From the NCBI GenBank assembly GCA_030550095.1, contig JAUQQA010000027.1:1-34430 (forward strand): a stretch of DNA of 34,430 nucleotides, given 5' to 3'. The notes under the pieces were generated by a model, which did not search any database, was not told the DNA's origin, and was given only the letters and a program-made list of their open reading frames with translations. This document shows positions 2,734 to 6,616 of this stretch, in pieces (the first letter of the stretch is position 1; every line of letters starts with the position of its first letter). The translations under genes and the position numbers were made by a program. This DNA is from Chloroflexota bacterium. GTDB lineage: Bacteria > Chloroflexota > Anaerolineae > J036 > Brachytrichaceae.

Positions 2734-4533
2734 ATGGCGAACGAGATGCGCGTGCAGTGGCGTGAGTGGAGTGACGAGGCGTTCGCAGAGGCGAAGGCGC
2801 AGGACAAACCCATTTTGCTTGGCATCAGCGCGGTGTGGTGTCATTGGTGTCATGTGATGGACCGAGGCATCCCTGGCGATCCCATTCACACGGGTGTTTA
2901 CAGCGACCCTCAGATCGCGGCTTACATCAACGAGCACTTCATTCCAATTCGCGTGGATAACGACCAGCGCCCTGACATCAACGCGCGCTACAACATGGGC
3001 GGTTGGCCCACCACCTGTTTCCTCACCCCCGACGGCGAGGTGATCTACGGCGCGACCTACCTCGCGCCAGCGCAGATGCGTCAATTGCTGCCGCGCGTGG
3101 TTGAAGTCTGGCGCAATGAGCGTGAGGAAGTGCTTGCGCACTTGCGCGCCCACGCGCAAGCGGTCGAGCCGCCTGCGGCGCCTGTCGGCGCGTTGCCCGA
3201 CGCCGAAACCGTGCTCAACGCCGTGCTCACCGTCATCACACGTAACTACGACCGCCGCAACGGTGGCTTAGGCGGCGGGCAAAAGTTCCCGATGAGCGAG
3301 GTGTGGTCGCTGCTGCTCCTACAACATCACCGCAGCGGCGAGGCAGCATGGCTCGACATGGTAGCGCAGACGCTGATCGCCATGGGCACGCGCGGCATGT
3401 ACGACCGCGTCGCTGGCGGCTGGTTCCGCTATTCCACCACGCCCGATTGGAGTGTGCCGCACTTCGAGAAGATGCTCGAAGACCACGCGCGCCTGCTGCC
3501 GCTCTACGCGCGCGCCGCGCAGCATTGCCAACAGGCGGGCAAAACCGCCGAAGCTGAGACATTGCTCGGCGTCGTCCAAAGCGCGCTGGCGTATCTCCAA
3601 AGCACGTTGCTGCGCGATGACGCCGAAGCGACGTACTTCGCCGGCAGCCAAGACGCAGACGAGCACTACTACATGCTCTCGCGCGTCGAACGCGCCCAGC
3701 ACACACCGCCTTTCGTTGATTGGCGGCTGTATGCCGACTGGAACGCGCTGATGGTCTCGGCGCTGCTCGAAGTGAGCGTGGTGTTGGGACAACCCGAGCT
3801 TGAAATGCTGGCCCAGCGCGTGTGGCACACGCTCGTGCGCTTGTGCGTCCAAGAGGATGGCTGCGTGGTTCACTCGCTGATCCCAAGCGAGACTGGCTTC
3901 CAACCCGCGCGCTTGCGCGGCATGCTCGGCGACCAAGCAGCGCTGGCGAAGGCCAGCCTCGACCTCGCGCAGCACGTGCCTGCGTTGCGCGCCGAGGCGC
4001 TGCAGCTTGCTGAGCGCGTCGTGCGCTTTGCGGTGCAACATCTGCGCGCGCCGAACGGTGGTTTCTACGACACACCAGCCGATGAGAACTGCCAGGGCTT
4101 GTTGCGCGTGCGCATCCAGCCGATGGCCGACAACAGCGCGTTTGCTGAGGCGCTGCTCGGACTGAGCTTTTTGCGCGAGGAACCCCGTTGGCGCGAAATA
4201 GCACAGCAAGCACTGGCGGTCTTCGCGGAGGAGTATCGGCGCTACCGTGAGCACGCCGCAGGCTACGCGCTCGCAGTTTGGCGCGCTGCGAACTTGCCCG
4301 ACGAGATCGCGCTGGTTGCCGATTCCGATGAGGCGCTTGCAGCGTGGGCGCGCGCCGCGCACACTCCCTACGCGCCGTGGCGTTGCGTGCATTTGCTGCA
4401 CACGGCGCGCGACGCGCACATCATCGCTGCGCGCGGCTACCCCACGCAACGCTTGCCGGTCGCGTTCCGCTGCAAGGGCACAACGTGCAGCGCGCCGATC
4501 TTCGAGCCATCCACGCTCACGACGGGCGTGTGA
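2734..4533 (+). CDS. thioredoxin-domain protein of the DUF255 / YyaL / SPATA20 family
   Basis: This 599-residue protein has an N-terminal thioredoxin-like domain (about residues 5-150) with the motif CHWC at Cys36-Cys39. A long alpha-helical region follows that resembles six-hairpin glycosidase or N-acylglucosamine epimerase folds (about 165-530). That pairing defines the DUF255 family. The QKFPMSE, DRVAGGWFRYSTTPDW and PHFEKMLEDHARLL stretches and the closing C-K-G-T-T-C segment are typical. The family's biochemical role is poorly known; a redox function coupled to a sugar-like ligand is often guessed. Family members are usually nearer 650-700 residues, so this one is compact. No signal peptide is seen, suggesting a cytoplasmic protein. 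The start at ATG 2734 is preferred because TACAAT lies 7 bases before it. The 3' end overlaps the convergent methyltransferase gene by 17 bases. Confidence 0.88.
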   Translation: MANEMRVQWREWSDEAFAEAKAQDKPILLGISAVWCHWCHVMDRGIPGDPIHTGVYSDPQIAAYINEHFIPIRVDNDQRPDINARYNMGGWPTTCFLTPDGEVIYGATYLAPAQMRQLLPRVVEVWRNEREEVLAHLRAHAQAVEPPAAPVGALPDAETVLNAVLTVITRNYDRRNGGLGGGQKFPMSEVWSLLLLQHHRSGEAAWLDMVAQTLIAMGTRGMYDRVAGGWFRYSTTPDWSVPHFEKMLEDHARLLPLYARAAQHCQQAGKTAEAETLLGVVQSALAYLQSTLLRDDAEATYFAGSQDADEHYYMLSRVERAQHTPPFVDWRLYADWNALMVSALLEVSVVLGQPELEMLAQRVWHTLVRLCVQEDGCVVHSLIPSETGFQPARLRGMLGDQAALAKASLDLAQHVPALRAEALQLAERVVRFAVQHLRAPNGGFYDTPADENCQGLLRVRIQPMADNSAFAEALLGLSFLREEPRWREIAQQALAVFAEEYRRYREHAAGYALAVWRAANLPDEIALVADSDEALAAWARAAHTPYAPWRCVHLLHTARDAHIIAARGYPTQRLPVAFRCKGTTCSAPIFEPSTLTTGV

Positions 4534-5137
4534 GCATGAACACCGAAACCGAGGCGTGGCGCATCCTCACGACGTGATGCGCCACCGCAAAGCCCGCAGC
4601 AGCAAAACGCCGCTGCGCGGCGTGTACCTCGCGTTGCGATTGCCCCGTCAGTCGGTAGATCGCGCGCAACAGCCGCGCGTGCGGCGTTGCTGAAAGCACG
4701 ATCACCCACACCCCGCCAGGGCACAACACGCGCCACACGGCGCGCAAGGTGTGCGCGTCGAAGACAGCAGCGGTGGGGAAGGTCCACACGGCTGCGTCGA
4801 AACATCGGTCTGCAAAGGGGAGCGCGCGCGCGTCCGCTTGCGCATGCAGCGCCGGTGCGAGCGCAGCGCGGCGCAGGCGCTCGCGCAGCCGGCGCGCCAT
4901 TTGCCACGATCGATCCACGCCCACCACGTCTATGCCGCACGCGCGCAAAGCGACGAAAAGATGCCCAGGACCGTGCCCGATTTCGAGCACGCGCCCTCTT
5001 TGCGGCAGAAACTGCAACGCACACCGCCCCCAGTCATGCCACTCGCCGAACGAGACTGCCGCTGCCACGACATCGTAAGCCCAGGCGAACGTGGTGTAGA
5101 GCCGATCGAGCAACCAGAGCACAAGCGCGCGCAGCAT
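4517..5137 (-). CDS. class I SAM-dependent methyltransferase
   Basis: This 206-residue protein has the Rossmann-type methyltransferase core. Motif I is VLEIGHGPG at residues 50-58. An acidic residue follows the second strand (VVGVDRSWQMARR), DARALPFADRCFDAAVW is the usual motif II/post-II region, and a CPGGVWVIV strand follows. It would transfer a methyl group from S-adenosylmethionine to an unknown acceptor; the fold does not reveal which. The hydrophobic N-terminus (LVLWLLDRLYTTFAWAYDVVAA) might contact a membrane or a lipid-like substrate, as in quinone or lipid methyltransferases, but this is inference. It is transcribed away from the FtsK-type gene, sharing a 109-base intergenic region, and converges on the DUF255 gene. 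Confidence 0.82.
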   Translation of the reverse strand: MLRALVLWLLDRLYTTFAWAYDVVAAAVSFGEWHDWGRCALQFLPQRGRVLEIGHGPGHLFVALRACGIDVVGVDRSWQMARRLRERLRRAALAPALHAQADARALPFADRCFDAAVWTFPTAAVFDAHTLRAVWRVLCPGGVWVIVLSATPHARLLRAIYRLTGQSQREVHAAQRRFAAAGFAVAHHVVRMRHASVSVFMLTRPS

Positions 5138-5175: not shown

Positions 5176-5204
5176 TTGACGATCACAAATGGGTTCAAGA
5201 TAAT
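5176..5204 (+). promoter_or_regulatory. sigma-70-type promoter of the FtsK-like gene
   Basis: TTGACG (5176-5181), a 17-base spacer and GATAAT (5199-5204) form the best canonical promoter in the window. Transcription would start near 5211, inside the LexA-like palindrome. A GGAG ribosome site at 5235-5238 lies 8 bases before the ATG at 5247. Confidence 0.7.
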
Positions 5205-5206
5205 TT

Positions 5207-5220
5207 TGAACAAGTGTTCT
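5207..5220. promoter_or_regulatory. LexA-like (SOS box) palindrome
   Basis: TGAACAAGTGTTCT holds a perfect GAAC-N4-GTTC palindrome (GAAC 5208-5211, GTTC 5216-5219). The known LexA box of Bacillus and mycobacteria is CGAAC-N4-GTTCG with a purine/pyrimidine preference in the centre, and AAGT fits it. The site covers the predicted transcript start of the FtsK-like gene, a position where a bound repressor would block initiation. The outer bases are T rather than C/G. Confidence 0.55.
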
Positions 5221-5246
5221 AATTCGTTGAGAGCGGAGACGAAGCA

Positions 5247-6221
5247 ATGTACCGCAAGCTTGCCTCGACTGCGGACCGAATCGAAGCGGTGCTGCGCGAA
5301 CGGCGCGCGCCAGCTATCGTTGTAGGCGGTCGGGTGTTGCCGGGGTTTGTAGAGATGCTGCTGCGCCCGGCGCCGGGCACGCGCGTTAGCCAGATCAAGG
5401 CGCTGCAAGCTGACCTGGCGTTAGCACTTGGGAACGCAAACGTGCGCTTGGTGCAAAGCGGTGATCATCTCGCCGTGCACATCCCGCGCGCCCAGCGCAG
5501 CGTGGTGCGCCTTTCGCAGCTACTGCAACGCGCGCAGCAGGCGCCGCCTTATACCGCAGTGCTCGGGCTTGCGGAAGACGGCGCGGTGCTCATGGCGAAT
5601 CTCGCTGCGCCCGAGGTGGCGCATGTGCTGATCGCAGGCGCGACGGGCAGCGGCAAGACGGTGCTCGCGCGCACCATCGTGCTGAGCCTGTGCGCGCGCC
5701 ATCGCCCCGCGCAGTTCGGCTTGGTCGTGATCGACCCCAAGTTGCGTGGCGAGGATGTCTTCGAGAACGCCGTGCGCCGCCATTTGCTTTTGCCGATCGC
5801 GCGCACGCCCGAAGCGATCCACGCTGCGATCGCGCGCGTGGTGCAGGCGATGGAACAGCGCACGCCGCGCGATGCAATCCATCCGCGCGTGTTGGTGTAT
5901 GTGGACGAGTTGGCGGACGTCTGCCACATGGGGGGCAGCGGCATGGTCGAGCAGCTCACGCGCATTGCGCAGCGCGGGCGCGAGGTTGGCGTGCATTTGC
6001 TTGCCTGCACGCAAAAGCCGACTGCGCGCGCGATCGGGAGCCTGCTCAAGGCAAACCTGCCGCTGCGGCTTGTGGGGCGTGTCGCCAGCCCTGAGGATGC
6101 GCGCGTTGCAGCGGGGCGTGGTGGCACCAACGCCGAGCGCCTGCTCGGCAGCGGTGATTTCCTCGCCGTCAGCGGCGCAGGCACCATTCGATTCCAGGCA
6201 GCTTACCCTGACGTGATGTGA
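5247..6221 (+). CDS. minimal FtsK/SpoIIIE-type DNA-translocase ATPase
   Basis: This 324-residue protein is essentially a single FtsK/SpoIIIE motor domain. An N-terminal region of about 100 residues (PAPGTRVSQIKALQADLALAL resembles the alpha domain preceding the motor) leads into Walker A GATGSGKT (131-138) and Walker B VLVYVDELAD with Asp220-Glu221. The FtsK-specific run follows: Q-R-G-REVGVHLLACTQKP, then KANLPLRLVGRVASPEDAR, and LLGSGDFLAVSG. It lacks the four membrane helices of full FtsK, the long linker and the C-terminal winged-helix gamma domain that reads KOPS sites. It is therefore not a complete chromosome-dimer-resolution FtsK. The next gene encodes a two-helix membrane protein that could anchor it. 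The promoter carries a LexA-like box, suggesting DNA-damage control. A plasmid- or element-derived transfer ATPase is an alternative, but no other mobile genes are nearby. Confidence 0.88.
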   Translation: MYRKLASTADRIEAVLRERRAPAIVVGGRVLPGFVEMLLRPAPGTRVSQIKALQADLALALGNANVRLVQSGDHLAVHIPRAQRSVVRLSQLLQRAQQAPPYTAVLGLAEDGAVLMANLAAPEVAHVLIAGATGSGKTVLARTIVLSLCARHRPAQFGLVVIDPKLRGEDVFENAVRRHLLLPIARTPEAIHAAIARVVQAMEQRTPRDAIHPRVLVYVDELADVCHMGGSGMVEQLTRIAQRGREVGVHLLACTQKPTARAIGSLLKANLPLRLVGRVASPEDARVAAGRGGTNAERLLGSGDFLAVSGAGTIRFQAAYPDVM

Positions 6222-6229
6222 GGGCAACG

Positions 6230-6616
6230 ATGCGCGGGCTGAATGTGGCGTTCGGCTTGGGCGTGGTCGGGTTCATGATCGCGCTGGGCGTCGGCATCAG
6301 CGCACACCTCAGCGCCGTAATGGTTGCGGTGCTAATGGGTGTAGTGATCGGCGCGTTGGTCACGGCGCCGACGGTTGCTTTGGTGATGTGGATCGCGTTG
6401 CGCGCGCACCACGAGGCAGCACATCCGTATGCGCCGATGCCGCCCTCGCCCGTGCGCCCTGTGCCCTGGTCGGCAGCACAGCCCGCCGAACCAGCGCCGC
6501 CTTTCGGCTTCGGGCAAGGCTTGCTGCCTCAGCCACGGCGGTTCTACGTCATTGGCGAATCGGGTGAGGTGACAGAGCTGAGCGCTGCTGAGTCGGATGA
6601 GGAGATGCGCTGGTGA
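6230..6616 (+). CDS. small two-helix membrane protein with a proline-rich tail
   Basis: The 128-residue product has two adjacent hydrophobic helices (about residues 3-25 and 28-52). They are followed by a cytoplasm-like tail rich in proline and alanine (about 60-100) and an acidic end (ESGEVTELSAAESDEE). I do not recognise a family. The ATG at 6230 is preferred: AGGG at 6221-6224 sits 5 bases before it, whereas the in-frame GTG at 6218 overlaps the ATPase stop codon and lacks a site. It begins 8 bases after the FtsK-like gene, so the two are almost certainly one transcript. A plausible idea is a membrane anchor supplied in trans to the soluble ATPase, but nothing beyond topology and position supports it. 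Confidence 0.75.
   Translation: MRGLNVAFGLGVVGFMIALGVGISAHLSAVMVAVLMGVVIGALVTAPTVALVMWIALRAHHEAAHPYAPMPPSPVRPVPWSAAQPAEPAPPFGFGQGLLPQPRRFYVIGESGEVTELSAAESDEEMRW

Follow-up and report, generated by a model that had tools for sequence, protein, structure and literature searches.

FtsK is a single large membrane protein, known for its part in normal division. In E. coli it combines a 4TM domain, a linker, a motor and a gamma domain, and the full-length gene (ftsK, or dinH) is SOS-induced (PMC4080785). B. subtilis has, beside its membrane-bound translocase, a second member of the family, SftA, that lacks transmembrane helices; in the part of the published account on which we draw, SftA retains a gamma-like domain and is brought in by the FtsZ ring, and that part mentions neither a separate membrane anchor nor a LexA box (PMC5357621).

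The gene described here, mini-FtsK, shares with E. coli FtsK the FtsK alpha and motor domains and, as promoter comparison predicts, LexA/SOS control. It differs in being a separate, additional motor without a gamma domain, and a two-helix protein would take the place of the 4TM domain, if the partner described below does supply the membrane part. It resembles SftA in being a second translocase of the FtsK type that lacks a membrane part, but unlike SftA it has no gamma domain (PMC5357621). Like TcpA, it is a small FtsK-like motor (TM-score 0.65 between the two), but it is chromosomal, LexA-linked and class-wide, and no transfer genes were recognised near it; transfer or replication genes alongside, or a place on a plasmid or element, would mark a conjugative translocase such as TcpA or TraB. 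HerA is likewise a related DNA motor, and the genome has an ORF-HerA operon that also carries a LexA box; mini-FtsK differs from HerA in having an FtsK alpha domain, and Pfam matched no HAS barrel in it. In the literature that we searched, we did not find the combination of a separate gamma-less motor, a dedicated membrane partner, class-wide LexA control and, often, a place behind lexA. Nor did that literature, which mostly excluded subscription papers, yield a published LexA regulon for Chloroflexi or Anaerolineae. The earlier note had placed the gene outside the known SOS set. That calls for caution, as SOS control of full-length FtsK is already known from E. coli; the newness lies in the separate, dedicated and, as proposed here, split form.

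The window, that is, the whole stretch of DNA analysed, comprises 34,430 nt of a Chloroflexota bacterium (GCA_030550095.1, contig JAUQQA010000027.1, positions 1-34,430). Its relevant features are as follows.

4517..5137, minus strand: divergent class I methyltransferase gene (Pfam Methyltransf_25, 5.8e-15)
5176..5181, plus strand: -35 element TTGACG (sequence and pattern scan; TTGAC at the same place in family members' promoters)
5185..5196, plus strand: apparently decayed first LexA box ACAAATGGGTTC (aligned against the same-genus promoter TTGACGATTGAACGTGTGTTCTAGATAATCTTGAACAAACGTTC)
5199..5204, plus strand: -10 element GATAAT (pattern scan; GATAAT retained in many family members)
5208..5219, plus strand: LexA box GAACAAGTGTTC, putative operator, over the predicted +1
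5247..6221, plus strand: mini-FtsK, 324 aa, FtsK alpha and motor domains (Pfam, AF2, fold match)
5634..5660, plus strand: Walker A, AGATGSGKT, residues 130-138 (comparison of 21 orthologues)
5886..5909, plus strand: Walker B region with invariant D220 and E221 (comparison of 21 orthologues)
6230..6616, plus strand: small membrane protein, 128 aa, with two helices, a Pro-rich linker and a tail motif
6536..6559, plus strand: tail motif RRFYVIGE, partner residues 103-110, proposed docking peptide

The LexA box at the mini-FtsK promoter

The earlier note had described a TTGACG-N17-GATAAT promoter, followed by a LexA-like palindrome, ahead of an FtsK-type gene. We found both in place: 17 nt separate TTGACG from GATAAT, the box GAACAAGTGTTC covers the predicted +1, as had been proposed, and the mini-FtsK ATG lies at 5247. 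A pattern scan returned exactly this promoter, with 10 of 12 positions matching (0.1 expected from shuffles of the 200-bp stretch). The window alone contains no excess of boxes over chance (one perfect GAAC-N4-GTTC seen, 0.37 expected), and one match in 34 kb is what might be expected if the palindrome were a chance match at a gene without SOS control. The match becomes significant because the box is rare genome-wide, stands at the lexA and recA promoters, and is kept upstream of orthologues.

The genome encodes one LexA (a full ORF on contig C9 with a PF01726 match of 6.1e-17). Perfect GAAC-N4-GTTC sites number 11 in 2.35 Mb, and the reversed control pattern gives 95. Judged by overlap with long ORFs, seven of these boxes lie within genes and were set aside from the regulon. 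The four at promoters belong to lexA, recA, mini-FtsK and a 197-aa ORF that precedes a HerA gene. The first three are near copies of one another over 16 nucleotides: TAGAACGCGCGTTCAA at lexA, TAGAACAGTTGTTCAA at recA and, on the minus strand, TAGAACACTTGTTCAA at mini-FtsK. The mini-FtsK operator is thus of the same kind as the genome's own lexA operator, and the same box was present in 23 of 25 lexA promoters of relatives. These results support the earlier note's reading of the palindrome as a LexA box. That reading had been staked on the genome's LexA motif being like GAAC-N4-GTTC and on the palindrome's presence in orthologous promoters; we checked both, and neither check refuted it.

On the second point, we sought the box within 250 bp upstream of 73 distinct mini-FtsK orthologues with readable upstream DNA. 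A perfect box was present at 49 of the 73, a count that is non-independent through relatedness, yet spans many families; the other 255 palindromic half-sites gave a mean of 0.31 and a maximum of 3 at the same orthologues. Only a spacer of 4 gave matches. By our own arithmetic, the 11-126 boxes per genome correspond to a chance rate of about 0.004 per 250-bp stretch. A further 13 orthologues lack a near box; each follows lexA or a lexA paralogue on the same strand, and boxes lie upstream there. Six have a one-mismatch box and five have none, two of the latter with less than 250 bp of readable sequence. Together, the 49 orthologous promoters, the dependence on spacer and the 13 genes behind lexA refute a chance match, to which we assign a negligible probability. 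The predicted LexA control of mini-FtsK is strongly supported, because the box is common to the lexA and recA promoters, occurs at 49 of the orthologues, is supplemented by the 13 genes behind lexA, and sits in a retained layout.

That layout was revealed by position-by-position alignment of promoters from the window's family: TTGAC, box 1, (TA)GATAAT or similar, and box 2 over +1. Family members carry a perfect box between -35 and -10, at the site of the decayed ACAAATGGGTTC. In the window species box 2 is intact and box 1 is reduced to the half site GGTTC, and many relatives have two boxes. Among the 49 box-bearing orthologues, 26 have two, mostly 27-31 bp apart. The shared order supports the promoter call and suggests that the operator was once double, one predicted LexA site having been lost in the window species.

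The same operator had also been proposed to affect the divergent methyltransferase gene, whose start lies 109 bp away and which could share it. We found no conservation of this arrangement: the methyltransferase adjoins mini-FtsK only in the window's genus, so a conserved effect on it is unsupported, and the gene is probably outside the system.

The mini-FtsK motor and its distribution

Pfam, the AF2 model and fold comparison agree with the earlier description of mini-FtsK as a minimal FtsK-type motor. Pfam assigns it FtsK_SpoIIIE (2.3e-24) and FtsK_alpha (6.7e-8), and the AF2 model (pLDDT 90.3) matches the FtsK motor on DNA (6t8b) with a TM-score of 0.89. A RecA-like motor, Walker A and B, and the FtsK alpha domain place the protein in the FtsK/SpoIIIE family. 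Within Walker A, residues G131, T133, G134, S135, G136 and K137 are invariant among the 21 orthologues. Two features of canonical full-length FtsK are missing: Pfam found neither a 4TM domain nor the gamma domain PF09397, and the protein stops after the motor. The same genome encodes two large FtsK-type ORFs, of 850 and 939 aa. The former has the 4TM, alpha, motor and gamma domains, which indicates that the mini form is an addition to, and not a replacement of, full-length FtsK.

We found strong mini-FtsK orthologues in most of 60 relatives, from some 30 families of one class; the weaker matches were full-length FtsKs. The 31 named matches at 42-69% identity all bear titles from Anaerolineae or from other groups of Chloroflexi (Anaerolineales, Caldilineae, Thermoflexales, Ardenticatenia), and beyond Chloroflexi identity falls to 36% or less, to ordinary FtsKs of other phyla. 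In a tree, 26 mini-FtsKs formed one clade apart from 22 full-length FtsKs, with support of 100/100. In family f27 of the same class (genomes G053, G076, G095, G104, G113, G122, G130, G161 and G169), mini-FtsK is apparently absent; the matches there were no stronger than those to full-length FtsK. One genome binned outside Anaerolineae (L267) carries the box, motor, extra gene described below and partner in the same order; this is possibly a stray contig, because its genome is listed with 8% contamination.

Mobile elements often place genes under LexA control, and mini-FtsK might be a relic or a component of a mobile element or phage, a conjugation or defence translocase. Phage FtsK-like proteins do share about 34% identity with it, and the TcpA fold match and weak matches to defence-system motors point the same way. 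We nevertheless consider this reading very improbable. A single clade in most of the 60 relatives and some 30 families of one class argues against it, as do the linkage to lexA in many families and the housekeeping-type character of the Pfam-annotated neighbours in the window; in relatives, the neighbours are lexA and the partner gene. We rejected an origin from a phage or plasmid.

A second possibility is that mini-FtsK acts in repair, with recombination or break intermediates as its substrates, like HerA, and that its partner serves only to position it near the membrane. The folds of HerA and FtsK are related, and the genome's fourth promoter box, at the ORF-HerA operon, would place another DNA motor in the regulon. 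We judge this decidedly unlikely: in both fold and sequence mini-FtsK comes closest to the FtsK motor rather than to HerA, the gene that constantly accompanies it encodes a membrane protein, and we recognised no nuclease gene among the annotated neighbours of the pair.

The membrane-protein partner and a proposed split FtsK

The earlier note did not include three features that emerged here: a conserved partner gene, the second operator of relatives, and operons that join lexA and mini-FtsK. A homologue of the partner lies downstream of mini-FtsK in 65 of 66 orthologues. In the window its ORF has an alternative start, a GTG at 6218 that overlaps the mini-FtsK stop. Of the 65 partners, 58 have two hydrophobic segments and seven have three. 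Most of them carry the motif R-x-F-x-[IV]-[IV]-G-[ED], which in several forms the extreme C-terminus. Basic residues follow helix 2. The AF2 model is poor (pLDDT 66), with helices at 2-24 and 29-63 and the rest at low confidence; a Foldseek search with it returned no matches, and no Pfam or NCBIfam family scored above cut-off. The idea that the tail motif is common to full-length FtsKs was rejected, as none of eight such proteins has it.

We somewhat favour the view that these genes form a two-gene SOS operon encoding a split FtsK, in which a separate subunit holds a soluble pump at the membrane. Its fuller version, an SOS-dedicated second pump without a gamma domain, held by a separate anchor that docks through a C-terminal peptide, present class-wide and often behind lexA, we regard as a toss-up. 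LexA bound to the box over +1, and in many relatives also to the one between -35 and -10, would repress the operon. DNA damage would then lead to RecA-driven self-cleavage of LexA and switch the operon on. The first product, to judge from its sequence and model, is a soluble FtsK-type dsDNA translocase consisting of the alpha and RecA-like motor domains only. As known for the family, it would assemble on dsDNA as a hexamer and pump. Since it has no gamma domain, its pumping should involve neither the reading of polarity sequences nor the activation of XerCD. The second product would be a two-helix membrane protein with a Pro-rich linker, whose conserved tail lies in the cytoplasm and docks the motor at the membrane. 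We infer this placement and docking from the near-universal co-occurrence of the two genes, the basic residues after helix 2 and the C-terminal or nearly C-terminal motif. The most likely role, whose chances we put at about even, is that during SOS the pair would work beside normal FtsK and clear or move chromosomal DNA at the membrane or septum. A soluble translocase could, however, act on recombination intermediates and have no septal role at all.

Small membrane proteins that inhibit division during SOS exist in other bacteria. The partner, a small membrane protein in a predicted SOS operon and of no known family, might likewise be a septation-delaying effector of a division checkpoint, with mini-FtsK competing with, or reshaping, the normal FtsK at the septum; a full-length FtsK is indeed encoded in the same genome. 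However, the partner is encoded together with an intact ATPase. The invariance of the ATPase's catalytic residues suggests a need for pumping as such, and what is conserved in the partner past its helices is a tail that follows a basic stretch rather than a periplasmic domain. We hold a checkpoint to be unlikely.

If the split-FtsK reading is true, DNA movement at the membrane would belong to the regular damage response of Anaerolineae. Mini-FtsK would offer a natural minimal motor, split from the membrane and sequence-reading parts, for dissecting FtsK, and its predicted regulation adds a firm LexA target for the class.

In some lineages, an extra small gene of about 80-100 aa, with a WFRDDI motif and of no known family, lies between mini-FtsK and the partner (L068, L078, L084, L085, L087, L112 and L267). 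Because some members of the class insert this gene, the two-part machine of motor and membrane protein may be incomplete. In one lineage (L075 and L114) an intervening gene is of the SRAP (HMCES/YedK-like) type, to judge by its MCGRF start.

Other LexA-boxed genes

At recA, all 3 loci parsed from the window's family have a perfect box, and none of the 20 from other families does (L217-L246). With the recA box confined to that family (3 of 23 parsed loci), the class-wide motif is defined by lexA, not recA, and the LexA regulon may not include recA in much of Anaerolineae.

The HerA operon (G000:C16:298-2620; L097:298-2620) encodes the 197-aa protein, which belongs to none of the known families, together with a HerA-type motor, and has the perfect LexA box just before its start. 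A box at -13 to -15 was present in 10 of 30 relatives' loci, all 10 from the window's family.

The genome scan allowing two mismatches gave hundreds of matches and was useful only for a one-mismatch box at a full-length FtsK. This degenerate box, GAAC-N4-GTCC, lies at -13/-14 from the start of one full-length FtsK (L095:2244-2255) and recurs at six loci from relatives within the family (L255, L256, L257, L258, L259 and L260). This FtsK may also be under weak LexA control.

Finally, four loci (L072, L076, L090 and L112) contain tandem LexA-type genes, the second of which, with LexA DNA-binding and S24 peptidase domains, directly precedes mini-FtsK; the boxes at these loci stand between the two LexA-type genes.
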